Source: Ramlibacter pallidus (GTDB lineage: Bacteria > Pseudomonadota > Gammaproteobacteria > Burkholderiales > Burkholderiaceae_C). Taken from it: DNA of 64,000 nucleotides. This document shows, one piece after another, positions 49,091 to 64,000 of the stretch (position 1 is the first letter of the stretch; the number at the start of each line of letters is the position of its first letter). A model generated the notes under the pieces. It ran no database searches. It was given only the letters and a program-made list of their open reading frames with translations, and was not told the DNA's origin. The DNA lies in NCBI RefSeq assembly GCF_015070875.1, contig NZ_JADDIV010000005.1:1-64000 (forward strand). Direction: 5' to 3'. The translations under genes and the position numbers were made by a program.

Positions 49091-50314
49091 TCAGGCCAGC
49101 AGGTCGTAGAGCGTGCGCGCCACGACCTGCGTGGCGCGACGCAGGTCCGCGAGCTCCAGCCGCTCGTCCGCACGCTTGGCATGCGACTCGAGCACGGTGC
49201 GCGGACCGGCGCCGTAGATCACGCCCGGGATGCCGGCCTCGCCATACAGGCGCACGTCGGTGTACAGCGGCGTGCCCATGGCGGGAATGTCCTCGCCGAA
49301 GACGGCCTTGCCGTGCTTCTGCAGGGCGGCCACCAGCGGCTGGTTGCCCGGCAGCGGCTGGAGTGCATTGGCGAGCAGCAGGCGACGGATCTCCACGGTG
49401 ATGCCGGGAAATTCCTTCGCCGCGGCGGCGATCACCTGGCGGATGTTCGCCTCGACTTCCTGCGGGTTCTCCTCGGGGATCATGCGGCGGTCCAGCTTGA
49501 ACGCGACCTTGCCCGGCACCACGTTGGTGTTGGTGCCACCCTCGATGCGGCCCACGTTCAGGTACGGGTGCCGGATGCCGGCCACTTTCGACGTGACCTG
49601 CTTGTAGAGCGCGTTCTGCGCGTAGAGCGCGTTCAGGATCTGCACGGCGCCCTGCAGCGCATCGACCCCGGTGTCCGGGATGGCGGCGTGCGCCATCTTT
49701 CCGTGCACCGTCACCTCCATCTGCAGGCAGCCGTTGTGCGCGGTGACCACTTCGTAGCTGAAGCCCGCGGCGATCATCAGGTCCGGCCGGGTCAGCCTGT
49801 TCTTCAGCAGCCAGCCCGGACCGAGCTCGCCGCCCATTTCCTCGTCGTAGGTGAAGTGCAGCTCGACGCCGCCCTTCAGCGGCGCCTGCAGCGACTCCAA
49901 CGCCCGCACCGCGAAGGTGAAGCTGGCGAAGTCGCTCTTGCTCACCGCCGCCGCGCGGCCATAGATCCTGCCGTCGGCGATCTCGCCGCCGTAGGGGTCG
50001 TGCGTCCAGCCCTCGCCGGGCGGCACGACGTCGCCGTGCGCGTTGAGTGCCACCGTGCGGCCCTCGCCGTAGCGGCGGCGCACGATCAGGTTGGTGATGG
50101 ATTGCAGTCCATGCGCCTTCACTTCCGCGTCGGGCACCGGATGCTTCTCGGCCTGCAGGCCCATGGCCTGCAGCAGTTCGGCGGTGCGTTCCGCGTGCGG
50201 CGCGTTGTGGCCCGGCGGCGTATCGGTCGGCACGCGCACCAGCTCCTGCAGGAAGCGCACCTCTTCGTCGAAGTGCGACGCGATCCAGGCGTCGAGGCGG
50301 TCGTAGGCGGTCAT
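49091..50314 (-). CDS. M20-family metallopeptidase (ArgE/DapE-like)
   Basis: A 407-residue M20 peptidase. The zinc ligands are in LNAHGDVVPPG and YDEEMGGELG, with a dimerisation domain in the middle and the late SHAKRADE. It deacylates or decarbamoylates an amino-acid-type substrate; in an operon with allantoate amidohydrolase, a ureide derivative is plausible. It starts 4 bases inside the end of the OHCU decarboxylase/allantoate amidohydrolase gene. Confidence 0.85.
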   Translation of the reverse strand: MTAYDRLDAWIASHFDEEVRFLQELVRVPTDTPPGHNAPHAERTAELLQAMGLQAEKHPVPDAEVKAHGLQSITNLIVRRRYGEGRTVALNAHGDVVPPGEGWTHDPYGGEIADGRIYGRAAAVSKSDFASFTFAVRALESLQAPLKGGVELHFTYDEEMGGELGPGWLLKNRLTRPDLMIAAGFSYEVVTAHNGCLQMEVTVHGKMAHAAIPDTGVDALQGAVQILNALYAQNALYKQVTSKVAGIRHPYLNVGRIEGGTNTNVVPGKVAFKLDRRMIPEENPQEVEANIRQVIAAAAKEFPGITVEIRRLLLANALQPLPGNQPLVAALQKHGKAVFGEDIPAMGTPLYTDVRLYGEAGIPGVIYGAGPRTVLESHAKRADERLELADLRRATQVVARTLYDLLA

Positions 50315-52119
50315 GGGGTCTCTTTCGCCAGCTGGTCCAGCAGGTGCCGGAAAGCCTCCACCGCCAGCTGGATGTCGTCGCTGGTCGTGGATTCCAGGGG
50401 GTTGTGGCTGATGCCGGCGTTCTGCCCGCGCACGAACAGCATGGCCTGCGGCATCACCTCGTGCAGCTTCATGGCGTCGTGGCCGGCGCCGCTGGGCATG
50501 CGGTACACGGGCACGCCCAGCGCATCGACGGCGCGCTCCCAGCGCTGCTGCCATCCGGGCGCGCTGGGCGCGGCGGCGGCCCGCATCGTTTCCTCGACGG
50601 CGTGGCGCAAGCCGCGCCGCTTGCAGATCTCCGCCAGCTGGGCCAGCACATCGGCCACCAGCGCGTCGCGTTGCGGATCGTTGGGTGCGCGCAGGTCCAG
50701 CGAGAACAGGCAGCGGCCGGGCACGACGTTGATCGAGCCGCTGGGCACTTCCAGCATGCCGATGGTGCCGACCGAATCGCCGTCGCGGCGTGCGCGCTCC
50801 TCGACGAACAGCGCGAGCTCCGCCACCGCCACCGCGGCGTCGCGCCGGCGGTCCATGGGCGTCGTGCCCGCGTGGCTGGCCATGCCGGTGACTTCGCACT
50901 GGAAGCGCACGCCCCCGTTGATGGACGTGACGACGCCCAGCGGCAGGTCCAGCTCGTTGAGCACCGGCCCCTGTTCGATGTGCACCTCGACGAAGCCGAG
51001 GTAGCGCGCCGGGTCGCGCTTCAACGCCGCGATCGCCTCCAGCGTGGCGGGCAGGCCGGCGTTGCGCATCGCCTCGCGCATGGGGATGCCCGCGGCATCC
51101 TTCTGGTCCAGCCAGGCCGGGTGGAAGGCGCCCAGCAGCGCACCCGACCCGAGGAAGGTCGCCTTGTAGCGCTGGCCTTCTTCCTCGGAGAAGGCGACCA
51201 CCTCGATGCCGAAGGTCAGCCGCCGGCCCGCGCGTGCCAGTTCGCGCACGCAGGCCATCGGCGTGAAGATGCCGAGGCGGCCGTCGTACTTGCCGCCGTT
51301 GCGCACCGTGTCGTAGTGCGAGCCGGTGAGCAGCCATTTCTCTCCCTCCCCCTCTGGGGGAGGGTTGGGGTCGGGGCGCCGCGGCGCATAACGGCCCACC
51401 ACGTTCCCGACCGCATCGACCTCCACTTCGTCGAAGCCGCAGTCCCGCATGGTGTCCACGATCTCCCGCGCGGCGGCCCGGTGCGCATCGGTGAGGTAGG
51501 TCACCGTCAGCTGGCCCTTCTCCGCGTAGCCGGGGTCGCTGTGCTCCGCCAGCCTTTCCTGCCAGTCCCACACCAGGTTGCCCAGCACGGGTTCGGCACC
51601 GAACTTGTCGTTCAGGCGCAGTTCGGCGATGCGGTGGATGTTGCGCAGCGCCTCGGCCCGTTCGAAGTCGGCGGGGTTGTCCAGGCGCCGCGCGAAGGTC
51701 GCGATGATCTCGCGCCGGTGCAGCCCGGTGCCGCGCGGGCCGCGCACCGCGAGGATGAAGGGGAAGCCGAACTTCGCGTTGTAGTCCGCATTGAGCTGCT
51801 GGATGCGCGCGAATTCCTCCGGCGTGCAGTCGGTCAGGCCGGCCTTGCCCTGTTCGTTCGTGGATTCGCTGGTGAGCGTCTTCGCCACCATGGCCTTGCC
51901 GGCCAGCTCCGGGTGGGCGCGGATCAGCGCGAGCTGCCGGTCCGCGGTGGCGTTGCCCACGACCTCGGCCAGCGCATGTTTCAGGTGGGCCAGGGAGCGG
52001 AAGGGCCGTTGCGCCAGCGCCGCCTGCGCGATCCACGGCGAGTGCTCGTAGACACCGTCGAGCAGGCGTGCCGCTTCGGCCGGGTCGCCAACGTTGATCT
52101 GTTCCAGGGTGAGGGCCAT
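50311..52119 (-). CDS. OHCU decarboxylase/allantoate amidohydrolase fusion
   Basis: A 602-residue fusion. Residues 1-170 are 2-oxo-4-hydroxy-4-carboxy-5-ureidoimidazoline decarboxylase (UraD; His69 in RAHPELAGK, and SESTNEQ), and residues 175-600 are an allantoate amidohydrolase (M20; metal ligands His268 and Asp279 in GSHYDTVRNGGKYDG, Glu312/313 in SEEEGQ, His379 in EVHIEQG). It performs two non-adjacent steps of urate breakdown. Residues 246-260 are encoded by a palindromic repeat and are absent from what I expect of the family. Confidence 0.9.
   Translation of the reverse strand: MALTLEQINVGDPAEAARLLDGVYEHSPWIAQAALAQRPFRSLAHLKHALAEVVGNATADRQLALIRAHPELAGKAMVAKTLTSESTNEQGKAGLTDCTPEEFARIQQLNADYNAKFGFPFILAVRGPRGTGLHRREIIATFARRLDNPADFERAEALRNIHRIAELRLNDKFGAEPVLGNLVWDWQERLAEHSDPGYAEKGQLTVTYLTDAHRAAAREIVDTMRDCGFDEVEVDAVGNVVGRYAPRRPDPNPPPEGEGEKWLLTGSHYDTVRNGGKYDGRLGIFTPMACVRELARAGRRLTFGIEVVAFSEEEGQRYKATFLGSGALLGAFHPAWLDQKDAAGIPMREAMRNAGLPATLEAIAALKRDPARYLGFVEVHIEQGPVLNELDLPLGVVTSINGGVRFQCEVTGMASHAGTTPMDRRRDAAVAVAELALFVEERARRDGDSVGTIGMLEVPSGSINVVPGRCLFSLDLRAPNDPQRDALVADVLAQLAEICKRRGLRHAVEETMRAAAAPSAPGWQQRWERAVDALGVPVYRMPSGAGHDAMKLHEVMPQAMLFVRGQNAGISHNPLESTTSDDIQLAVEAFRHLLDQLAKETP
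51337..51378. repeat. Dispersed GC palindromic repeat, copy 4, within a coding region
   Basis: CTCCCTCCCCCTCTGGGGGAGGG followed by TTGGGGTCGGGGCGCC matches copies 1 to 3, but lies in frame inside the allantoate amidohydrolase domain and encodes RRPDPNPPPEGEGE. Confidence 0.8.
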
Positions 52120-52120
52120 G

Positions 52121-53065
52121 TCAGTTCGAGGGGCAGGGATGGGCCTGCGTCCAGTGGCGGGCGATGTCGATGCGGCGGCACACCCAAACGCGGTCGTGCG
52201 CGGCGATGTGGTCCAGGAAGCGCTGCAGCGCGATGATGCGGCCGGGTCGCCCGAGCAGGCGGCAGTGCATGCCGATGCTCATCATCTTCGGCGCTTCGTC
52301 GCCCTCGGCGTACAGCACGTCGAAGGTGTCGCGCAGGTACTGGAAGAACGGGTCCGCGTGCGAGAAGCCCTGGGGCAGCGCGAAGCGCATGTCGTTGCAG
52401 TCCAGTGTGTACGGCACCACGAGGTGCGGCACGGCCTGGCCGTCGCTCTTGCGCACCTTCATCCAGAAGGGCAGGTCGTCGCCGTAGTAGTCGCTGTCGT
52501 AGGCGAAGCCGCCGTAGTCGGCGACGAGCCGGCGCGTGTTGGGGCTGTCGCGCCCGGTGTACCAGCCGAGCGGCCGCTCGCCGGTGAGGCGGACGATGCC
52601 TTCCATGGCCAGCCGCATGTGCTCGCGTTCGGTGGCTTCGTCGACGTTCTGGTAGTGGATCCACTTCCAGCCATGGCAGGCGATCTCGTGGCCGAGCTCG
52701 ACGAAGGCCTGCGTCAGTTCCGGGTGGCGCTGCAGCGCGGTGGTCACGCCGAACACCGTCAGCGGCAGGCGGCGCTGTTCGAACTCCCGCAGCAGGCGCC
52801 ACACGCCGACGCGCGACCCGTATTCGTAGATGCCCTCCATGCTCAGATGCCGGTCCGGATAGGCGGCCGGATTGAACATCTCGGAGAGGAACTGTTCGGA
52901 GGCGGGATCGCCGTGCAGCACGCTGTTCTCGCCGCCTTCTTCGTAGTTCAGCACGAACTGGACGGCGACGCGGGCATGGCCCGGCCAGCGGGCGTGGGGC
53001 GGGTTGCGGCCGTAGCCCACGAGGTCGCGCGGGTAGGCGGCGGTGGAGTCGTAGATGGGATTCAT
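52121..53065 (-). CDS. puuE: Allantoinase PuuE (polysaccharide-deacetylase family)
   Basis: A 314-residue allantoinase of the cofactor-independent PuuE type. The NodB-like fold is shown by [46 protein letters not shown] and [13 protein letters not shown]. It converts allantoin to allantoate, the substrate of the next enzyme in the operon. It is followed after one base by the UraD-AllC fusion. It is divergent from uraH. Confidence 0.93.
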
Positions 53066-53121
53066 GCGGGCACCGGGGGGACCGGGCAAGAATACACTCC
53101 CGCGAAACACGGAGATCCCGC

Positions 53122-53475
53122 ATGGGCCTGAGCACCCACGTCCTCGACACGATGCACGGCACGCCGGCCGCCGGCATGGCCGTGGAGCTGCATGCCATCG
53201 CGGGAGGCCAGCCACAGTTGGTGAAGCGTTTCGTTCTCAACGCCGACGGCCGCAATGCCGATGGGCCGCTGTTCGACAACGCGAGCCTGAAGAAGGGCAC
53301 CTACCGCCTGGTGTTCGACGTCGCCGCGTACTTCCGCGGCCGCGGGGTCACGCTGCCGGACCCGCCGTTCCTGGACCGGGTCAGCCTCGACTTCGGCATC
53401 GCCTCCGTGGACCAGCACTACCACGTGCCGCTGCTGGTGAGCCCGTGGAGCTATTCGACCTACCGCGGGTCCTGA
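53122..53475 (+). CDS. uraH: 5-hydroxyisourate hydrolase (UraH)
   Basis: A 117-residue transthyretin-like enzyme. His6 (HVLDTMHG), Arg in GRNADGP-type block, and the C-terminal YRGS signature are intact. It hydrolyses 5-hydroxyisourate to OHCU. The ATG follows GGAG. A bidirectional terminator lies after it at 53482. The -10-like TACACT is in the 56-base gap shared with puuE. Confidence 0.95.
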
Positions 53476-53481
53476 AACGAA

Positions 53482-53504
53482 AAAGCGCCGCGGCGCGGCG
53501 CTTT
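53482..53504. terminator. Bidirectional hairpin terminator
   Basis: AAAGCGCCGC and GCGGCGCTTT form a 10-bp stem with a 3-base loop, between the convergent uraH and lipoprotein genes. Confidence 0.8.
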
Positions 53505-53524
53505 CGCGGCGGTGCCGGCCCCGT

Positions 53525-54052
53525 TCAGTCCTGGCCTTCCGTCAGCGTGTCCAGCTGGAACTGGCCGCTCTTGTGCCAGAGCCAGGTGTCCGTCCACACC
53601 ACCTTGCCCATGCGCGCCGGCATGGGGTAGGGCGCGGCGGCCCGCACCGTGCGTTCGATCTCGGCGATCACTTCCGGCGCGTGTTTCGGCGCGCGCATCC
53701 AGTTCAGGGTGCGCACGTTGCCTTCGCGGTCGACCTCCACCTGCAGCACGCCGATCGCGTACAGCAGCGGCGGCAGGCGGCCCTTCCAGATGCGTTCGCC
53801 GTTCATGCTGTACACGTGCTGGGCGGCATCGGCGCGGTAGGCGCGCGGGTTGGCGGCGTTGGAGGTCTTGATCACCATGGGGGAGTGTTGCGGGGCCTGC
53901 GCGCTGGCCGGCGCGCCCATGTCGGGCGAGACGGTGGCGCGCGGCGGCTCCGGGGGGAGCGGCGTGGACGTGCAGGACGCGAGCAGCACGGTGGCCGTGG
54001 CGAGCACGGCGGGCGTCAGGGTACGCAAGGTGGGTTGATACTTCGTCATCAT
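53525..54052 (-). CDS. Conserved lipoprotein
   Basis: A 175-residue lipoprotein. The lipobox is TVLLASCTST (Cys27). The mature part has a Pro-rich linker and a C-terminal domain with LYAIGVLQVEVDREGNVRTLNWMRAPKHAPEVIAEIERTVRAAAPYP, resembling a TonB C-terminal-like fold. It lies between purine genes but has no obvious role in them. Function unknown. Confidence 0.75.
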   Translation of the reverse strand: MMTKYQPTLRTLTPAVLATATVLLASCTSTPLPPEPPRATVSPDMGAPASAQAPQHSPMVIKTSNAANPRAYRADAAQHVYSMNGERIWKGRLPPLLYAIGVLQVEVDREGNVRTLNWMRAPKHAPEVIAEIERTVRAAAPYPMPARMGKVVWTDTWLWHKSGQFQLDTLTEGQD

Positions 54053-54169
54053 GGATCCTGGCAGTCACGCGGCGAGGCGCCGGGGGAATCTACAACGGCC
54101 GCGCTTGCGGCAATGATGACCCTGGTTACCAATCGTTGGATGTCCGTGCCGGCGGCTACACGGTAAAGA

Positions 54170-54964
54170 ATGCGCCCCATCAAAGAAGTCACGACGCGGC
54201 TCGCCGCCGAAGACGCGGTGTTGGTCACCGTCGACAGCACGCAAGGCTCCGTGCCGCGCGAGGCCGGCGCCTGGATGGCCGTCTTCGCTCAGGCGGTGGT
54301 CGGCACCATCGGCGGCGGCCACCTGGAATTGCAGGCGATCGGCGAAGCGCGCCGGCGCCTGGCCGGATCCGAAGGCGAGCCGGTGCTGCGCTATCCGCTC
54401 GGCCCGTCGCTCGGGCAGTGTTGCGGCGGCGTGGTGCGTTTACGTTTCCAGCGCATCACGCGCAGCGATGCTGTCCCCCTGCCGCAACGGCTGTCGGCGC
54501 CCGGCACCCCCGTCGCCCTGTTCGGCGGCGGCCACGTGGGCCGCGCCATCATCGAGGTGCTCGGCCCGTTGCCGTTCGACGTCACCTGGATCGACAGCCG
54601 CGACGAGATCTTCCCGGACACCGTGCCGGACAACGTGCGGTGCGAGCACTCCGATCCCGTGCAGGCCGCCGTCGCCGCGCTGGCGCCCGGCTCGCGCGTG
54701 CTCGTCATGAGCTTCAGCCACGCCGAGGACCTGGACATCGTCGCGGCCTGCCTGCGGCGGCTGCGCGAGCGCGGCGACCTGCCCTTCGTCGGGCTGATCG
54801 GCAGCAGGACGAAGTGGGCCACCTTCCGCCACCGCCTGGTGGAGCGCGGATTCGCGGAAGACGAACTGGCGCGCATCACCTGCCCGATCGGCATCCCGGG
54901 CATCGGGGGCAAGGAGCCCGAGGTGATCGCCGTGGCGGTGGCGGCGCAGCTGCTGCAAAGCTAA
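54170..54964 (+). CDS. xdhC: Xanthine dehydrogenase accessory protein XdhC
   Basis: A 264-residue XdhC/CoxI-family maturation factor. The N-terminal domain has GSVPREAGAWMAV and GTIGGGHLELQA, and the C-terminal Rossmann domain has VALFGGGHVGRAI and GLIGSRTK. It inserts sulfurated molybdenum cofactor into xanthine dehydrogenase. The structural genes xdhAB are not in the window. The PuuD gene follows after 126 bases. Confidence 0.93.
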   Translation: MRPIKEVTTRLAAEDAVLVTVDSTQGSVPREAGAWMAVFAQAVVGTIGGGHLELQAIGEARRRLAGSEGEPVLRYPLGPSLGQCCGGVVRLRFQRITRSDAVPLPQRLSAPGTPVALFGGGHVGRAIIEVLGPLPFDVTWIDSRDEIFPDTVPDNVRCEHSDPVQAAVAALAPGSRVLVMSFSHAEDLDIVAACLRRLRERGDLPFVGLIGSRTKWATFRHRLVERGFAEDELARITCPIGIPGIGGKEPEVIAVAVAAQLLQS

Positions 54965-55090
54965 ACTCGGCCACTTCGCCGCAGCGGCGCTCGTGACGGA
55001 CCTTCCCCTGCCGGGGCGGGCCGCCGCGATGTGCGCGGCCTTCTTCCTGCTCAGAGCGCCCGCGGTGGTGAGCAGTCCAGAACGAAAGCC

Positions 55091-56287
55091 ATGGAAAGCT
55101 ATCTTCTCGACTGGGCCAACCTGCTGCTGCGCTGGCTGCACGTGATCACCGCCATCGCGTGGGTGGGCTCCTCCTTCTACTTCGTCTTCCTCGACAGCAG
55201 CCTCACGCCGCCCGCCGATGCGAAGCTGCGCGAGGAGGGCGCCACCGGCGAACTGTGGGCCGTCCACGGCGGCGGCTTCTACCACCCGGTGAAGTACGCG
55301 GTGCGGCCGCCCCAGTTGCCGCCGCACCTGCACTGGTTCTTCTGGGAAAGCTACTCGACCTGGCTCTCCGGCTTCGCGCTCTTCACGGTCTCGTACATCT
55401 GGAACGCGGGCAGCTACCTGGTGGACCGCTCGCTGATGGACTGGTCGCCCGGCGCGGCGGTGTCCGTGGCCCTGTCCTTCCTGGTGGTGTTCTGGATCCT
55501 CTACGACGCGATCTGCCAGCTGTTCGGCCAGCGGAAGAACGGCGGAGCCATCGTCGGCGCGCTGGTGCTGCTGCTGGTGTGCGTGGCCTCGTGGCTGGCC
55601 TGCCAGTGGTTCGCGGGGCGCGCGGCCTTCCTGCTGGTGGGCGCCATGCTGGCCACGGCGATGAGCGCCAACGTGTTCTTCTGGATCATCCCGGGCCAGA
55701 AGAAGGTGATCGCGTCGATCAAGGCAGGCGAACCCGTGGACCCCATCCACGGCCAGCGGGGCAAGCAGCGCAGCGTGCACAACACCTACTTCACCCTGCC
55801 GGTGCTGTTCGCAATGCTGTCCAACCACTACAGCTTCCTCTACACGCACGCGCACAACTGGGTCGTGCTGATCCTGATGATGTTCGCCGGCGCCGCGATC
55901 CGCCAGTTCTTCGTGATGCGGCACGGCTGGAAGCTCGGGCGCAACCGCCATCCCGCCGGCTACGCGCTCGTCGGCATCGCCGCGATCGTCGCCACCATCG
56001 CCTGGCTCACCCCGCGCCAGGAGGCGACTGCGGCCGCACCAGCCACCGCGAACTACGCGGCCGTGCAGAAGGTGCTGGAGCAGCGCTGCTATCAATGTCA
56101 CGGCGCGCAGGTCCAGATGAAGAACGTGCGCCTCGACTCCGCCGAGGCGGTGAAGCAGCACGCGCAGGCGGTGTACCTGCAGTCGGTGGTGGCGAAGACG
56201 ATGCCGCTGAACAACGCGACGCAGATGACGGACGTGGAGCGGGCGTTGGTGGGGCGGTGGTTCCAGGCGGGGGCGCGGACGGATTGA
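55091..56287 (+). CDS. puuD: Membrane urate oxidase PuuD with cytochrome c domain
   Basis: A 398-residue urate hydroxylase with eight or so membrane segments in residues 10-310 and a C-terminal cytochrome c domain with heme site CYQCH (about residue 335). It oxidises urate to 5-hydroxyisourate and passes electrons to the respiratory chain rather than making H2O2. ATG 55091 matches the family start. UraH, UraD and PuuE for the following steps are nearby. Confidence 0.93.
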   Translation: MESYLLDWANLLLRWLHVITAIAWVGSSFYFVFLDSSLTPPADAKLREEGATGELWAVHGGGFYHPVKYAVRPPQLPPHLHWFFWESYSTWLSGFALFTVSYIWNAGSYLVDRSLMDWSPGAAVSVALSFLVVFWILYDAICQLFGQRKNGGAIVGALVLLLVCVASWLACQWFAGRAAFLLVGAMLATAMSANVFFWIIPGQKKVIASIKAGEPVDPIHGQRGKQRSVHNTYFTLPVLFAMLSNHYSFLYTHAHNWVVLILMMFAGAAIRQFFVMRHGWKLGRNRHPAGYALVGIAAIVATIAWLTPRQEATAAAPATANYAAVQKVLEQRCYQCHGAQVQMKNVRLDSAEAVKQHAQAVYLQSVVAKTMPLNNATQMTDVERALVGRWFQAGARTD

Positions 56288-56712: not shown

Positions 56713-56775
56713 TCACTCATAGCGGAAGGAAAGCGGCAGCGAAGCCTGCCGCACAATGCGGTGCAAGGATCCCCC

Positions 56776-58092
56776 ATGCCAGCGCCCGACCCCCGCCAAG
56801 ACCCCCGCGCCTTCCTCGAGCACCTCTACCGCGCCGCGGTGCATCGCGCCCTGCCGCTGCACAACACCGCGGCCTACCTGCCGGCGCCGCCGCGGGGGCG
56901 AACGCTGGTCCTCGGCGCGGGCAAGGCAGGAGGCGCGATGGCGCAGGCGGTCGAGGCGCATTGGCCGGCCGACGCGCCGCTTTCCGGCCTGGCCGTGACG
57001 CGCTACCACCACACGCCGCCGCGCCCGGCCGGCCTGCCGCGCCGGATCGAGGTGGTCGAGGCCGCGCATCCCGTTCCCGATGCCGCGGGCCTGCACGCCG
57101 CCGAACGCATCCTCGCGCTTGCGCATGGCCTCACGCCCGACGACCTGGTGCTGTGCCTCATCTCCGGCGGCGGCTCCGCGCTGCTCACGCTGCCCGCCGA
57201 AGGCCTGTCGCTGGAGGACAAGCAGCGCATCAACCGCGCGCTGCTGGACTCGGGCGCCAACATCACCGAGATGAACTGCGTGCGCAAGCACCTGTCGCGC
57301 ATCAAGGGCGGGCGCCTGGCGGCCGCGTGTGCACCGGCACGCGTCGTGACGCTGACGATCAGCGACGTTCCGGGGGACGATCCTTCGGTCATCGCCAGCG
57401 GGCCGACCGTGCCCGACACGACGACCTGCGCCGACGCGGTCGCGATCCTGCAGCGTTATGGCATCGAGGTGCCGGGCGCCATCATGAGCCTGCTGGAGCA
57501 GGGCGCGCTGGAAACGCCGAAACCCGGCGACGCCGTGTTCCAGGGCCAGCAGGTGCACATGATCGCGACGCCGCAGCAGTCGCTGGAAGCCGCGGCCTCC
57601 GCGGCAAGGGCCGCCGGCGTCGAGGCGCACATCCTCAGCGACGAGATGGAAGGCGAGTCGCGCGAGGTCGGCAAGGTGCATGCGGCGCTGGCGCGCGCGG
57701 TGGCCCTGCGCGGCCAGCCTTTCCACCGGCCGTGCGTGATCCTGTCCGGCGGCGAGACGACCGTGACGGTGCGCAAGGTGCCGGAGGGCACGCCGCGCGG
57801 CCGTGGCGGCCGCGCCGGCGAGTTCTGCCTGGGGCTGGCCGAGGCGCTGCAGGGCCAGCCCGGCGTGTTCGCGCTCGCGGCCGACACCGACGGCATCGAC
57901 GGCAGCGAGGACAACGCCGGCGCCTTCGTGGCGCCGGACACGCTGCGGCGCGCGCAGGCGCAAGGCCTGAAGATCGCCGCCCACCTGGCGCGCAACGATG
58001 CCTACGGCTACTTCCAGGCGCTCGGCGACCTGGTGGTCACGGGGCCCACCCACACCAACGTCAACGACTTCCGCGCGCTGCTGGTGCTCTGA
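56776..58092 (+). CDS. Glycerate 2-kinase (GK-II, MOFRL family)
   Basis: A 438-residue glycerate kinase of the TtuD/GckA type, making 2-phosphoglycerate. The glycine-rich region LISGGGSALL and block LGAGKAGGAMA lie in the N-terminal domain, and the C-terminal MOFRL domain carries GGETTVTV...GRGGRAGEF and AADTDGIDG. It supports use of tartrate or other C2-C4 acids with the TtuC-like dehydrogenase downstream. It begins after the inverted repeat; ATG 56776 is preferred over GTG 56761. Confidence 0.92.
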   Translation: MPAPDPRQDPRAFLEHLYRAAVHRALPLHNTAAYLPAPPRGRTLVLGAGKAGGAMAQAVEAHWPADAPLSGLAVTRYHHTPPRPAGLPRRIEVVEAAHPVPDAAGLHAAERILALAHGLTPDDLVLCLISGGGSALLTLPAEGLSLEDKQRINRALLDSGANITEMNCVRKHLSRIKGGRLAAACAPARVVTLTISDVPGDDPSVIASGPTVPDTTTCADAVAILQRYGIEVPGAIMSLLEQGALETPKPGDAVFQGQQVHMIATPQQSLEAAASAARAAGVEAHILSDEMEGESREVGKVHAALARAVALRGQPFHRPCVILSGGETTVTVRKVPEGTPRGRGGRAGEFCLGLAEALQGQPGVFALAADTDGIDGSEDNAGAFVAPDTLRRAQAQGLKIAAHLARNDAYGYFQALGDLVVTGPTHTNVNDFRALLVL

Positions 58093-58095
58093 ACG

Positions 58096-59004
58096 CTAGA
58101 GCGCCGCGCTGCCGAAGTGCGCGGCGAGGTGCTCGACGAAGAGCCGCACCCGCGCGGTGTGGGCCTGGGCTGCCGGGTAGACGGCGTAGATGTCCGCCGG
58201 GGGCGCCAGCCAGTTTTCCAGCACCGGGCGCAGGCGGCCGCTGCGCAGGTAGCGCGCGACGTCCCATTCCGCGCGCAGCACGATGCCGTGGCCGGCCAGC
58301 GCCCAGTGGACGGCCACTTCGCCGTCGTTGGTGGACAGCCGCCCGCGCACCTTCACGGTTTCGGTCTTGCGGCCGGCGCGCAGCTTCAGCACGCCGTAAG
58401 GATCGTTGCCCTGCCGGATCGCAATGAGGCCGTGTTCCAGCAGGTCCTGCGGTTCCTCCGGCGTTCCGTGGCGGGCGAGGTAGGCGGGCGCGGCGCACAG
58501 CAGCCGCCGGTTGGGCGCCAGGCGCCGGGCGATCACCCGTGCGTCCGGCGGCTCGCCGAAGCGCACGCACACGTCGAAGCTGTCCTCCGCCAGCGCCGGC
58601 GGGTTCGCGGACAGCTGCAGCTGCACGTCGACCTGCGGGTGCTTGCGGGCGAAGCCGGCGATCAGCGGCGCCACGTGCATGCGGCCGAAGCCGAGGGTGG
58701 CGTTCACCCGCAACAGCCCACGCGCCTGCGCGCGCGTGCCGCGCAGTTCGCCTTCGGCCGCCTCGATCTCGGCCAGGATGCGCCGGGCATGCTGCAGGTA
58801 GGTCTCGCCCTCGGCCGTCACCCCGATGCGCCGCGTGGTGCGGTGGAGCAGGGGCACGCCCAGGCGAGCCTCCAGCTGCGCGAGCCGCTTGCTGACGGCC
58901 GCGGTGCTCACCTGGAGCTCGCGGGCGGCCGCCGACAGGCTGCCGGAGCGCACCAGGTCGCTGAAGAACTGCATGTCGGTGGAGGAGGCGGCGGCGCTGG
59001 ACAT
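58096..59004 (-). CDS. LysR-family transcriptional regulator (DmlR/TtuA-like)
   Basis: A 302-residue LysR regulator. Residues 10-70 form the helix-turn-helix (SGSLSAAARELQVSTAAVSKRLAQLEARLG), and the rest the two-lobed effector domain. It is similar to regulators of D-malate/tartrate genes. It converges on the glycerate kinase with a 3-base gap and points away from the TIR-like gene and ttuC-like gene. Confidence 0.88.
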   Translation of the reverse strand: MSSAAASSTDMQFFSDLVRSGSLSAAARELQVSTAAVSKRLAQLEARLGVPLLHRTTRRIGVTAEGETYLQHARRILAEIEAAEGELRGTRAQARGLLRVNATLGFGRMHVAPLIAGFARKHPQVDVQLQLSANPPALAEDSFDVCVRFGEPPDARVIARRLAPNRRLLCAAPAYLARHGTPEEPQDLLEHGLIAIRQGNDPYGVLKLRAGRKTETVKVRGRLSTNDGEVAVHWALAGHGIVLRAEWDVARYLRSGRLRPVLENWLAPPADIYAVYPAAQAHTARVRLFVEHLAAHFGSAAL

Positions 59005-59101
59005 GGCTGGTTTTCCCTGGCGGCATTCTCGTCCTGTCTTGCGCGCGCGACAGCGCGGAGCGCCACAACGGTTAAATTCGTGGGTCTACGAGGAGTGCTC
59101 C

Positions 59102-60199
59102 ATGTCCAACGGCAAGCAGAATGCCGGCTCGCACGGGCCGCAGGACCGCGCCGCCATCGAAAGGACGATCGAGAAGATCGCCCGCACCGTGCGCGAACTG
59201 CGCAACACCGACGTTTCCACCATCGAGGACCGCTGGGACACCCGTCTCGACGGCCTGCAGAAGAAGATCAACGGCGTGCTCGCCGAGGCGCTGGGCATCT
59301 CGTCGGCGGAATACAAGAAGGAACAGGTCCCGCCGCTCGACTCCGAGCTGCAGACGACGTTCGGCGAGCGCTACACCGTCGAGGAATACCGGGACATCCT
59401 GCGGCTGGCGCTCCACCAGGCGGCCAACAAGCTGGAGGCGGTGAGCCGCAAGCTGGTGCAGCGCGCCGAAGGCGGCCCGGCCGAAAGCCCGGCCCCCGCG
59501 CCCGCGCCGGAACCCGCACCCGAGCCCGAGCCCGAGGCGGAAATCGAAGAAGAGACGCCCGCAGAAGAACCGGAGCCCGAACCGGCCCCGCCGCCGGCCG
59601 CGACACCGGCTCCCACACCCGCGCCGACACCCGCTCCAACGCCGGCGCCCACCCCGGCCGCGAAGCCGGCTCCGGCTCCCGTCCCTGCGCCCGCGAAGGC
59701 GCCGGCGCCCACGCCCACCCCCGCCCCCGCCCCGACGCCCGTCCCCACACCCGCACCGCAGGAACCCGCCATGAGCGCATCCCCCGCCCCGTCCGCGCAG
59801 AAGCGCAGCATCGCCATCATCTGCGCCACCGCCGACACCAAGAGCGCGCAGTCGCTGTCGAACTACGTCACGCAGCTGGGGCTGTCGCCGGCGCTGCATT
59901 CGCTGGCCAAGGCGGGCACCGACGCGGCGACGCTGGAAGCGCTGGAGGCGGCGCGCGGCGCCGAATATGCCATCGTGCTGGGCGCGGCGGACGCCTCCGC
60001 CATCCCGCCGCTGCACATCGGTTTCCTCCTCGGCCTGGTGGGGCGCAACCGCCTCTGCTTCCTGGGCAAGGGCACGCCGGCCGCCGGCGTCGACGCGGTC
60101 CCGCGCCACACGCTGGACGACGGCGGCCTGTGGAAGCTGCTGGTCGCGCGCGAGATGAAGCAGGCCGGGCTGGACATCGACCTGAACCGCGCGATGTGA
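59102..60199 (+). CDS. TIR-like nucleotide-binding protein with P/A-rich linker
   Basis: A 365-residue protein in three parts. Residues 1-125 are a helical domain (RWDTRLDGLQKKINGVLAEALG...SAEYKK) like those found before TIR-like domains. Residues 126-222 are a low-complexity Pro/Ala/Glu linker (PAPTPAPTPAP repeats). Residues 232-365 match the TIR-like predicted nucleotide-binding family (PF10137): RSIAIICATAD, LEALEAARGAEYAIVLG and a C-terminal WKLLVAREMKQAGLDIDLN. The catalytic Glu expected in the FELG motif is His here (LHIGF). A GAGGAG precedes the ATG. Its partner is unknown. Confidence 0.72.
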   Translation: MSNGKQNAGSHGPQDRAAIERTIEKIARTVRELRNTDVSTIEDRWDTRLDGLQKKINGVLAEALGISSAEYKKEQVPPLDSELQTTFGERYTVEEYRDILRLALHQAANKLEAVSRKLVQRAEGGPAESPAPAPAPEPAPEPEPEAEIEEETPAEEPEPEPAPPPAATPAPTPAPTPAPTPAPTPAAKPAPAPVPAPAKAPAPTPTPAPAPTPVPTPAPQEPAMSASPAPSAQKRSIAIICATADTKSAQSLSNYVTQLGLSPALHSLAKAGTDAATLEALEAARGAEYAIVLGAADASAIPPLHIGFLLGLVGRNRLCFLGKGTPAAGVDAVPRHTLDDGGLWKLLVAREMKQAGLDIDLNRAM

Positions 60200-60298: not shown

Positions 60299-61369
60299 AT
60301 GAAGACCTATCGCATCGCCTGCATCCCCGGCGACGGCATCGGCAAGGAAGTCATCCCCGCCGGGCAGGAGGTGCTGCAGGCGCTCGCCGCCGCCGGGGCC
60401 GGCTTCGGTTTCGCGTTCACCAGCTTCGGCTGGGGCGGCGACTGGTACCGCGCGCACGGGCAGATGATGCCGGACGACGGCCTGGAGGCCTTGCGCGGCA
60501 TGGACGCGATCCTCTTCGGCTCCGCCGGCGACCCGCAGATCCCCGACCACGTCACCTTGTGGGGCCTGCGGCTGAAGATCTGCCAGGGCTTCGACCAGTA
60601 CGCAAACGTGCGCCCGACGCGCATCCTGCCGGGCATCGACGCCCCGCTGAAGCGCTGCACGCCGAGGGACCTGGACTGGGTCATCGTGCGCGAGAACTCC
60701 GAGGGCGAGTACGCCGGCGTGGGCGGCCGCGCGCACCAGGGCCACCCGATCGAGGTCGCCACCGACGTGAGCATGATGACGCGCGCCGGCGTGGAACGCA
60801 TCATGCGCTTTGCGTTCCGGCTCGCGCAGTCGCGGCCGCGCAAGCTGCTGACGGTGGTCACCAAGTCCAACGCGCAGCGGCACGCCATGGTGATGTGGGA
60901 CCAGATCGCCGCCGAGGTCGCGCGCGAGTTCCCGGACGTGCGCTGGGACAAGGAGCTGGTCGACGCGTGCACGGCGCGCATGGTCAACCGGCCGGCCTCG
61001 CTGGACACGCTGGTGGCCACCAACCTGCACGCCGACATCCTCAGCGACCTCGCGGCGGCGCTGGCGGGCAGCCTGGGCATCGCACCCACCGGCAACATCG
61101 ACCCCGAGCGCCGCTATCCGAGCATGTTCGAGCCGATCCACGGCTCCGCGTTCGACATCATGGGGCAGGGCCTCGCCAATCCCATCGGCACGTTCTGGAG
61201 CTGCGTGATGCTGCTGGAACACCTGGGCGAGCACGAAGCCGCCGCGCGGCTGATGCAGGCGATCGAGTCCGTCACCGCCGACCCCGCCCTGCACACCGGC
61301 GACCTCGGTGGCAAGGCACGCACGGCCGACGTCACGTCCGCGGTGTGCCACCGCTTGAAGAACCGCTGA
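60299..61369 (+). CDS. Tartrate/D-malate dehydrogenase (TtuC/DmlA family)
   Basis: A 356-residue NAD-dependent beta-decarboxylating dehydrogenase of the isocitrate/isopropylmalate family. It begins IACIPGDGIGKEV, with the substrate region RENSEGEYAGVGGR and the metal-binding HADILSDLAAAL; FEPIHGSAFDIMGQG is the NAD-binding signature. It acts on tartrate or D-malate. With the glycerate 2-kinase it would form a tartrate pathway. The ATG follows AAAGGACG. Confidence 0.92.
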   Translation: MKTYRIACIPGDGIGKEVIPAGQEVLQALAAAGAGFGFAFTSFGWGGDWYRAHGQMMPDDGLEALRGMDAILFGSAGDPQIPDHVTLWGLRLKICQGFDQYANVRPTRILPGIDAPLKRCTPRDLDWVIVRENSEGEYAGVGGRAHQGHPIEVATDVSMMTRAGVERIMRFAFRLAQSRPRKLLTVVTKSNAQRHAMVMWDQIAAEVAREFPDVRWDKELVDACTARMVNRPASLDTLVATNLHADILSDLAAALAGSLGIAPTGNIDPERRYPSMFEPIHGSAFDIMGQGLANPIGTFWSCVMLLEHLGEHEAAARLMQAIESVTADPALHTGDLGGKARTADVTSAVCHRLKNR

Positions 61370-61429: not shown

Positions 61430-62386
61430 ATGAACCGGATTCTTTCCCTGCTCGCGCTCGCGCTGCTGGCGCCCGCGGCCCCGGCACAGGCCCCGGCCTG
61501 TCCCGAGAAGAACGTGCTGTACTGGCAGGCCTTCCCGCCCGGCGGCGAGTCCGACCTGTCCGCGCGGCACCAGCAGGTGGTGCTCAAGAAGCGCTGTCCC
61601 GCCATCGACACCATCATCCAGTACAAGGCCGGCGCCGGCGGCGCGCTGATGTGGACGCAGATGAACCAGCTGCCGGGCGACGGCGCCAACATCGTCGGCG
61701 TCAACCTGCCGCACATCGTGTTCCAGCCCATCGAGGGCCAGGTGCAGTACAAGACCCAGGACGTCACGCCGGTGTTCTGGTTCCACTACACGCCGGACAT
61801 CCTCGTCGTGCCGGAGCAGAGCCCGGTGAAGACCTTCGACGACTTCATCAAGGCCGCCAAGGCGAACCCGGGCAAGCTCAGCCTCGGCGGCTCGGGCTCC
61901 AACTCCGCCAACCATGCCGCCCACGAGCGCATGAACAAGGCCTTCGGCGTGAAGACGATCTACGTGCCGTTCAAGGGCACCGGCGACATGGCCACTTCCG
62001 TGCTGGGCGGCCAGGTCGACGGCGCGATGACGTACACCGCCTTCGCCATCAACAACAAGACGAAGGTGCGGCCGCTCGCGGTCGCCATGGAGAAGCGGCA
62101 TCCGCTGATGCCCGACGTGCCCACGTTCAAGGAGCTGGGCGTCGACTGGGTGGACGGCGCCTACCGCGGCATCGGCGTGCCGAAATCGACGCCGGCCGCG
62201 GAACGCAAGCGGCTGTCCGACCTCTGGCGCTCGCTCAACAACGACCCCGAGATGAAGGAGCTGGCCGCGAAGAGCGGCTTCGAGCTGGTGAACGTCGGCG
62301 TCGAGGAGATGGACGCGTTCATGCAGGGCAAGGTGAAGCTCTACACGGAAGGCGCGGCTCTGCTGGGCCTCGGCGCGAAAAAGTAG
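61430..62386 (+). CDS. Bug/TctC-family tripartite tricarboxylate binding protein 3
   Basis: A 318-residue exported binding protein with a signal peptide (MNRILSLLALALLAPAAPA) and the Bug motif QAFPPGGESDLSARH, more divergent than the other two. It follows the ttuC-like gene after 60 bases, with GGAG 9 bases before the ATG. A hydroxy-dicarboxylate such as tartrate or malate is the likely ligand. No tctAB is nearby. Confidence 0.88.
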   Translation: MNRILSLLALALLAPAAPAQAPACPEKNVLYWQAFPPGGESDLSARHQQVVLKKRCPAIDTIIQYKAGAGGALMWTQMNQLPGDGANIVGVNLPHIVFQPIEGQVQYKTQDVTPVFWFHYTPDILVVPEQSPVKTFDDFIKAAKANPGKLSLGGSGSNSANHAAHERMNKAFGVKTIYVPFKGTGDMATSVLGGQVDGAMTYTAFAINNKTKVRPLAVAMEKRHPLMPDVPTFKELGVDWVDGAYRGIGVPKSTPAAERKRLSDLWRSLNNDPEMKELAAKSGFELVNVGVEEMDAFMQGKVKLYTEGAALLGLGAKK

Positions 62387-62516: not shown

Positions 62517-64000
62517 ATGCCCCCTCCCTCGCCCGCGGCGTCGCAGCGCGCCGATGATTTCCTTGCCGGCGGTGGAGAGCTCGGCGCCCTGATCCGGGCG
62601 CACGACTGGCGCGGCAGCCCGCTCGGCGAGCCGGCGCAATGGCCGCGCAGCCTCAAGACTGCGGTGCGCATCATGCTCACCTCGCGCCAGCCCATCTGGA
62701 TCGGATGGGGCCCTGAACTCACCTACCTCTACAACGATCCCTACCAGGCGATCATCGGCGGCAAGCACCCGTGGGCCGTGGGACGGCCGACGTCCGAGGT
62801 GTGGAGCGAGATCTGGCAGGACATCGGCCCGCTGCTCGCCACCGCGATGGCCGGCGACGGCACCTACGTCGAGAACCAGCTCCTCGTCATGGAGCGCAAC
62901 GGCTACCCGGAAGAGACCTACTACACCTTCTCGTACAGCCCGATCCCGGGCGACGATGGCGCTCCGGCCGGCATCATCTGCGCCAACACCGACGAGACGC
63001 AGCGCGTGGTCGGTGAAAGGCAGCTGGCCCTGCTGCGGGAGCTCGGCGAGCGCACCGCCGACGCCCGCACGCCCGAGCAGGCCTGCGAACGCTGCGTCGC
63101 CGCCCTGGAGACCGACGCGCGGGACGTCACCTTCGCGCTGATCTACCTGGCGCCGCCCGGCGAGGAAGACCTGCGCCTGGTCGCCGCGCACGGCATCGAG
63201 CGCGGTGCACCGGGTGCACCGCTGCTGCTGCGGCCGGGCGCGCGGCCGTGGGCCGTCGCGGCCCGGGACGAAGAGTGCACCGTGGTGCCGCTGGATCTCG
63301 GGCTCGGCCCCTGGCCGTCCGGTGCCTGGCGCGAGCCCTCGCGCGAGGCCGTGGTGCTGCCGCTGGCGGCCGGTGGCGAGGCCGGCTCGCACGGGCTGCT
63401 GGTGATCGGACTGAGCCCGGTGCGCCTGTTCGACGAGGACTACCGGGACTTCCTGATGCTGGCCGCCAAGCAGGCGGCCGCCGCGGTCGCGCACGCGGAG
63501 GCGTACCAGGCCGAGCAGCGCCGTGCCGAAGCGCTGGCGGAGATCGACCGCGCGAAGACGCAGTTCTTCTCCAACGTCAGCCACGAATTCCGCACGCCGC
63601 TCACGTTGATGCTCGGCCCGCTGGAGGAAGCCCTCGCGCTGCGCGACGGGCTGTCGCCGCGGCATGCGGAACTGCTCGACCTGGCGCACCGCAACAGCCA
63701 GCGGCTGCTGCGCCTCGTGAACACGCTGCTGGATTTCTCGCGCATCGAGGCCGGGCGCGCGCAGGCCGCCTTCCGTCCGACCGCGCTGGCCGAGTTCACG
63801 CGCGAGCTCGCCTCCAACTTCGAGATGGTGACGGCGCGCGCCGGCCTCACGCTGGCGCTGTCCTGCCCGCCGCTGCCGCAGCCGGTGTACGTCGACCCGG
63901 GGATGTGGGAGAAGATCGTCCTCAACCTGCTGTCGAATGCCTTCAAGTTCACCTTCGAAGGCGGCATCTCGGTGCGCGTGGAGCCGACCGAGGACGGACG
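62517..64000 (+). CDS. PAS/GAF sensor histidine kinase (3' partial)
   Basis: The frame is open to the window end (494 codons so far). The N-terminal part (about residues 25-165: SPLGEPAQWPRSLKTAV, then PIWIGWGPELTYLYNDPYQ) is a PAS-like sensor domain often found in bacterial phytochrome-like hybrid kinases; residues about 180-330 form a GAF-like domain; a HisKA domain with the phospho-His in FFSNVSHEFRTPLTL and the start of the ATPase domain (NLLSNAFKF) follow. A membrane anchor is not seen. The start lacks a good ribosome site. Confidence 0.85.
   Translation, partial: MPPPSPAASQRADDFLAGGGELGALIRAHDWRGSPLGEPAQWPRSLKTAVRIMLTSRQPIWIGWGPELTYLYNDPYQAIIGGKHPWAVGRPTSEVWSEIWQDIGPLLATAMAGDGTYVENQLLVMERNGYPEETYYTFSYSPIPGDDGAPAGIICANTDETQRVVGERQLALLRELGERTADARTPEQACERCVAALETDARDVTFALIYLAPPGEEDLRLVAAHGIERGAPGAPLLLRPGARPWAVAARDEECTVVPLDLGLGPWPSGAWREPSREAVVLPLAAGGEAGSHGLLVIGLSPVRLFDEDYRDFLMLAAKQAAAAVAHAEAYQAEQRRAEALAEIDRAKTQFFSNVSHEFRTPLTLMLGPLEEALALRDGLSPRHAELLDLAHRNSQRLLRLVNTLLDFSRIEAGRAQAAFRPTALAEFTRELASNFEMVTARAGLTLALSCPPLPQPVYVDPGMWEKIVLNLLSNAFKFTFEGGISVRVEPTEDG

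Follow-up and report, generated by a model that had tools for sequence, protein, structure and literature searches.

A degenerate CAP12/PF10137-type TIR domain protein encoded beside tartrate and glycerate catabolism genes in Ramlibacter pallidus: a candidate non-catalytic scaffold

The first 64,000 nucleotides of contig NZ_JADDIV010000005.1 of Ramlibacter pallidus (assembly GCF_015070875.1; this whole stretch is referred to below as the window) contain, at 59102-60199 on the forward strand, an uninterrupted open reading frame (ORF) of 365 amino acids with GAGGAG shortly 5' of its ATG. The locus raises the question of what a protein with a TIR-like domain does when its catalytic glutamate is gone and it is encoded among genes of tartrate and glycerate catabolism. 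An earlier reading, made from the sequence alone, had described the ORF, an observation that is confirmed here, and had proposed that the protein may bind but not cleave a nucleotide, as a sensor or decoy, and that it could be either a defence remnant or a domesticated regulator. That interpretation is partly supported, and the linkage of the gene to catabolic genes was missed in it. The explanation that we favor, at a probability of roughly 0.45, is that the protein may be a non-catalytic TIR scaffold or adaptor that was recruited into catabolism.

The three-part architecture described in the sequence-only reading was borne out in full. The helical N-terminal domain (N-domain) was modeled by AlphaFold2 (AF2) as five helices with a predicted local distance difference test (pLDDT) score of 82.1, residues 1-11 being below 50. 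The linker, previously put at about 95 residues, comes close to that figure at 109 by our own boundaries and consists of 39% Pro, 27% Ala and 13% Asp/Glu. A linker of 72-159 residues was present in all 30 family members measured and is thus a common family feature, the window's being the most acidic (0-8% Asp/Glu in the other 29), and N-domain, linker and TIR domain lie in one reading frame in each of the 30. An antisense ORF of 345 residues (59072-60109, reverse strand) crosses the Pro/Ala linker; it probably arises from the GC-rich repeat there and is not a gene. For the C-terminal domain, the model (alignment of 41 rows, five of them canonical TIRs) had TIR topology with a pLDDT of 87.6 and a predicted template modeling (pTM) score of 0.82, so that the TIR-like fold proposed earlier was upheld and no different fold was predicted, yet nucleotide hydrolases of similar fold score almost equally.

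With the Pfam model for PF10137, the family named in the sequence-only reading, the window's protein scored 16.3 bits for the domain and 12.7 bits over its whole length, below the cut-off of 24.7 that was passed by seven other family members in the genus. Despite this sub-threshold score, homology to the PF10137 TIRs is secure because a profile-profile comparison of the family alone (34 rows) with canonical proteins (5 rows) gave a probability of 99.8 and an E value of 7e-28, and on these profiles the domain is shown to share ancestry with CAP12/PF10137 TIR proteins. With the SfSTING TIR and PycTIR, PF10137 effectors of CAP12/Pycsar type, it shares the fold, the GF..G..GR stretch of alphaC, helix alphaE and the DxN tail in addition to the profile homology, but it differs from them in being without the catalytic Glu, the Arg-x-Asn and the EIPSD motif. 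Profiles of the PADLOC candidate system PDC-S35 also matched the TIR domains of the family (34 of 34 at E<=0.01, no cut-off being supplied with the profiles), although the window's best stretch covers the C-terminal part only and the setting of the family is metabolic, not defensive; a literature search returned no paper naming PDC-S35.

Loss of the active site proved to be both real in the window and wider than had been noted. In SfSTING, E84 is described as catalytic, R78 and N80 as positioned for substrate coordination, and D110, in the DD loop, as completing the active site from the dimer mate (PMC9402430). The Glu of the canonical RARQNVxFELGY stretch is His in the window (IPPLHIGF), where the Arg and Asn are also missing, in agreement with the earlier claim. 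Among 37 family members this position is E in 24, A in 8, Q in two and T, S and H in one each; the His is unique to the window, whose nearest relative (L008) carries Gln, and a Glu-to-His change is not fixed in homologues. Canonical proteins have Glu in four of five (the exception, L056, has Gly). Among 36 family members, Arg at -6 was found in five and Asn at -4 in none, so that a complete Arg-x-Asn occurs in 0/36 versus 4/5 canonical proteins, and GKTxxEK and EIPSD are each present in 0/36 versus 5/5. A test for the HGH motif was weak, the pieces having been cut to 140 residues and the motif missed in three of the five canonical proteins. On a 30-member tree built without the Glu column, three changes between Glu and non-Glu were needed; 1000 shuffles required 9.1 on average and never fewer than 5. 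The tree is a single FastTree run, midpoint-rooted; support is low (0.14-0.38) on several deep branches and reaches 0.63 on the one that unites L015 with the window pair, and the figure of about three losses is therefore approximate. The simplest reading of these patterns would be an early loss of the pocket in the family, followed by loss of the Glu in about three lineages. An acidic replacement elsewhere in the domain was not seen: no column is fixed as acidic in the 13 Glu-less rows yet missing from the 21 rows with Glu; enrichment is strongest in columns 30 and 70, which are acidic in 62% of the Glu-less rows. That the canonical NADase site has been lost is well supported.

The family to which these counts refer is a small one, found mainly in the window's genus. 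Of the 59 genomes examined from the genus, 36, among them that of the window, carry a TIR-domain homologue (E<=1e-4), and the family is for this reason not a chance occurrence. A family-wide draw of 398 genomes contained 19 with a match to its profile: nine reached at least 135 bits (the window's genome, three others from its genus, two from genus g94 and three from g14), and ten fell below 95 bits. Five of these ten (L053-L056 and L087) were inspected and proved to be canonical-type proteins. Before counting, duplicates from one genome (L014, L016, L022, L049 and L051) and entries that were partly N (L010 and L048) were removed; L027 and L039 are truncated by contig ends. L042 (genome G014) was counted in the 37 of the Glu tally and left out of the 36 for motifs and neighbors; its TIR gene has a broken frame and its ttuC match contains a TGA, from either assembly error or decay.

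What is conserved in the domain is helix alphaC and helix alphaE with the tail. The smallest mean column entropies were those of alphaE (0.66 bits), the tail (0.76) and alphaC (1.08), and the largest those of the CC loop (2.65) and the DD region (2.37). Seven residues (Arg58, Trp117, Leu119, Arg123, Gly129, Asp133 and Asn135) are invariant in 34/34; the Arg58 position is A, S or T in five of five canonical proteins, which marks it in the alignment as a constraint new to the family. In the SfSTING TIR dimer, as described, alphaC forms the nonpolar core and the CC-loop insertion also participates (PMC9402430). For the window pair, the ratio of nonsynonymous to synonymous substitution rates (dN/dS) was 0.37 (0.22-0.59) for the TIR domain and 0.49 (0.28-0.80) for the N-domain, and lower in the neighboring ttuC, LysR and receptor genes (0.12, 0.19 and 0.26, respectively); both domains of this pair are thus under purifying selection, and because of this a defence remnant, one of the two origins suggested earlier, is unlikely for the window pair. 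That the gene is a decaying, functionless remnant could be argued from its patchy presence (36/59), from its faster evolution relative to its neighbors and from two Glu-less pairs near neutrality (dN/dS of 0.67 and 0.75, intervals reaching 1; a third, L036/L045, gave 0.62 without an interval). We nevertheless hold decay to be very improbable, as the dN/dS interval is below 1 in two other pairs as well as the window's, and the invariant residues and the single frame through all three parts also speak against it. Of the two earlier options, domestication is the better supported.

In the window, the order is MOFRL protein gene (ttuD is our own label for it), divergent LysR, TIR gene, ttuC and TctC receptor. 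When neighbors were counted at >=60% identity, with TctC-receptor paralogues at 25-31% (some on the opposite strand) excluded, one of ttuC, ttuD, LysR or the receptor lay within 200 bp of the TIR gene in 31 of 36 loci measured and within 8 kb in 33; with G014 (L042), G005 (L071), G818, G662 and G835 added, the counts were 33 and 36 of 41. The remaining five of 41, namely G051, G054 and the three g14 genomes, showed none of these genes in the sequence available; G054 has a distant ttuC on the same contig, and for G051, G194, G662 and G835 there was less than 8 kb of DNA on at least one side, so that a farther ttu gene is possible. The copies of genus g14 (L094, L095 and L097) adjoin a gene for a HerA/DUF853-like ATPase and lie near YebC- and PurD-like genes, all named by eye. 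Orders vary (LysR-TIR-ttuC, ttuD-TIR-ttuC, ttuD-TIR-receptor, ttuC-TIR-receptor-ttuD and TIR-receptor-ttuC), but the strands do not: every located ttuC, ttuD and receptor gene is on the strand of the TIR gene, and 14/14 located LysR genes are on the opposite one. The TIR-to-ttuC gap is 20-36 bp in three loci (L021, L045 and L047), which suggests that the two genes may be co-transcribed there. Among the 23 of 59 genomes of the genus without the TIR gene, 18 retain ttuC at >=84% identity, and in G057 and G022 LysR directly adjoins ttuC with no TIR gene between. Adjacency to tartrate/glycerate genes is therefore shown to be repeated across the family, and common descent explains part of it. In a literature search, no paper was found that pairs a TIR domain with tartrate dehydrogenase, or Ramlibacter with a TIR domain.

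This recurring metabolic setting counts against the possibility that the protein is still an anti-phage effector, activated by oligomerization and with an altered chemistry. The PDC-S35 matches, the Glu retained in 24/37 and the patchy occurrence would suit such an effector. However, as the sequence-only reading had stated, no recognized defence gene is adjacent: none of 10 flanking proteins of the window matched PADLOC defence models at 1e-10, and neither a defence neighborhood nor, unlike in CBASS or Pycsar, a CD-NTase or cyclase was found among them. In addition, the pocket motifs are missing in 36/36, and at E 1e-5 there was no match to plasmids for the whole protein or to phages for the TIR domain. 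We consider an effector distinctly unlikely. In L012 (163-2602), from a Flavobacteriales contig, the gene of a canonical PF10137-type TIR protein is followed immediately by one that was judged by eye to be DNA adenine methylase-like, an arrangement that resembles defence loci and contrasts with the window.

Another possibility is that the protein regulates the catabolic cluster by sensing a ligand: the degenerate pocket would bind a metabolite or nucleotide uncut and the N-domain would signal to LysR or the transporter. Of the 14 loci in which a divergent LysR gene was located, 12 have it 59-127 bp from the TIR gene, the TIR gene runs in the same direction as ttuC, ttuD and the receptor gene wherever these were located, and the alpha/beta fold of the domain resembles many ligand-binding domains; on the other hand, several loci pair the TIR gene with ttuD or the receptor and have no adjacent LysR, and variability is greatest in the CC loop and DD region. 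The earlier proposal of a nucleotide that is bound and not cleaved is weakened because the residues described as holding NAD in SfSTING (PMC9402430) have also been lost. A sensor appears to us unlikely, and that a scaffold is preferred over it is a judgement.

Table 1. Features of the TIR gene and its neighbors in the window
Feature	Position	Strand	Evidence
N-terminal helical domain, residues 1-126, conserved	59102..59479	+	AF2 model, 29-sequence alignment
Linker rich in Pro/Ala/Thr with acidic stretch, 109 residues	59480..59806	+	composition, lengths in relatives
Degenerate CAP12/PF10137-type TIR domain	59807..60196	+	model, profile comparisons
LHIGF, start of helix alphaC, His where canonical catalytic Glu stands	60011..60025	+	alignment
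WKLLVAREMKQAGLDIDLN, conserved helix alphaE and tail, common to canonical PF10137 proteins	60131..60187	+	lowest column entropy of domain
DUF4147/MOFRL protein, glycerate 2-kinase-like (ttuD)	56761..58092	+	PF13660, PF05161; NCBIfam glycerate 2-kinase models below cut-offs
LysR-type regulator, divergent; TtdR-like, below that model's cut-off	58096..59004	-	
Tartrate dehydrogenase ttuC, ~100 bp 3' of TIR gene	60299..61369	+	TIGR02089 548.8 bits, cut-off 470.4
TctC-type (Bug) tripartite transporter receptor	61430..62386	+	PF03401

The N-domain, considered also as a possible sensor (STING or similar) fused to the TIR domain, gave no match in the PDB at E<=0.001 and no strong match in Pfam, where the matches were scattered, weak and helical. 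Comparison by hhalign showed no relation to the N-terminal part of canonical L012 (29 sequences against one, probability 1.1). In an order-wide draw it was present in one of 399 genomes, the window's own, a count that understates its spread, as at least two other genera have it. Its amphipathic helices and a dehydrogenase-like neighbor in L094 had prompted the idea of a phasin of polyhydroxyalkanoate (PHA) granules, which was dropped since no phasin profile was among the Pfam matches. Elsewhere in the window, genes for conversion of urate to allantoate (50311-56287) lie beside the tartrate/glycerate genes and encode an OHCU decarboxylase/allantoate amidohydrolase-like fusion, allantoinase PuuE, XdhC and a PF06181-type urate oxidase, the C-terminal part of which reads CYQCH. 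A long ORF of ~1280 codons (gene call on the joined contig) adjoins the receptor gene, beginning at 62517 and running past 64000.

In prokaryotes, TIR domains are generally viewed as enzymes that act on NAD; in animals they are viewed as adaptors, with MyD88 and MAL using the TIR domain for assembly in immune signaling. A scaffold in R. pallidus would resemble these adaptors in using a TIR domain for assembly and would differ in serving bacterial metabolism. The domain shares an ancestor with the CAP12/PF10137 TIR proteins and has lost the NAD-cleaving site; it would function without catalysis, self-associating via alphaC, the helix that supplies the nonpolar core of the SfSTING dimer, and offering the face formed by alphaE and the tail to a partner. 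The long linker would keep the helical N-domain at a distance, and the protein would act as a scaffold or adaptor for the products of the neighboring catabolic genes. The Dictyostelium proteins TirB and TirD are likewise described as domesticated CAP12/Pycsar-type TIRs and reported to be without NAD activity in vitro, but they are eukaryotic, horizontally acquired and retain the Glu (PMC13142454). The fuller proposal, that an immune NAD-cleaving TIR became a non-catalytic scaffold that organizes tartrate/glycerate (perhaps purine) catabolism, and hence a prokaryotic pseudo-TIR adaptor outside immunity, is more tentative and we regard it as rather doubtful. If true, a prokaryotic family that has lost its active site, kept its likely assembly surfaces and come to reside next to metabolic genes would offer a natural experiment on the conversion of an enzyme of immunity into a structural part.
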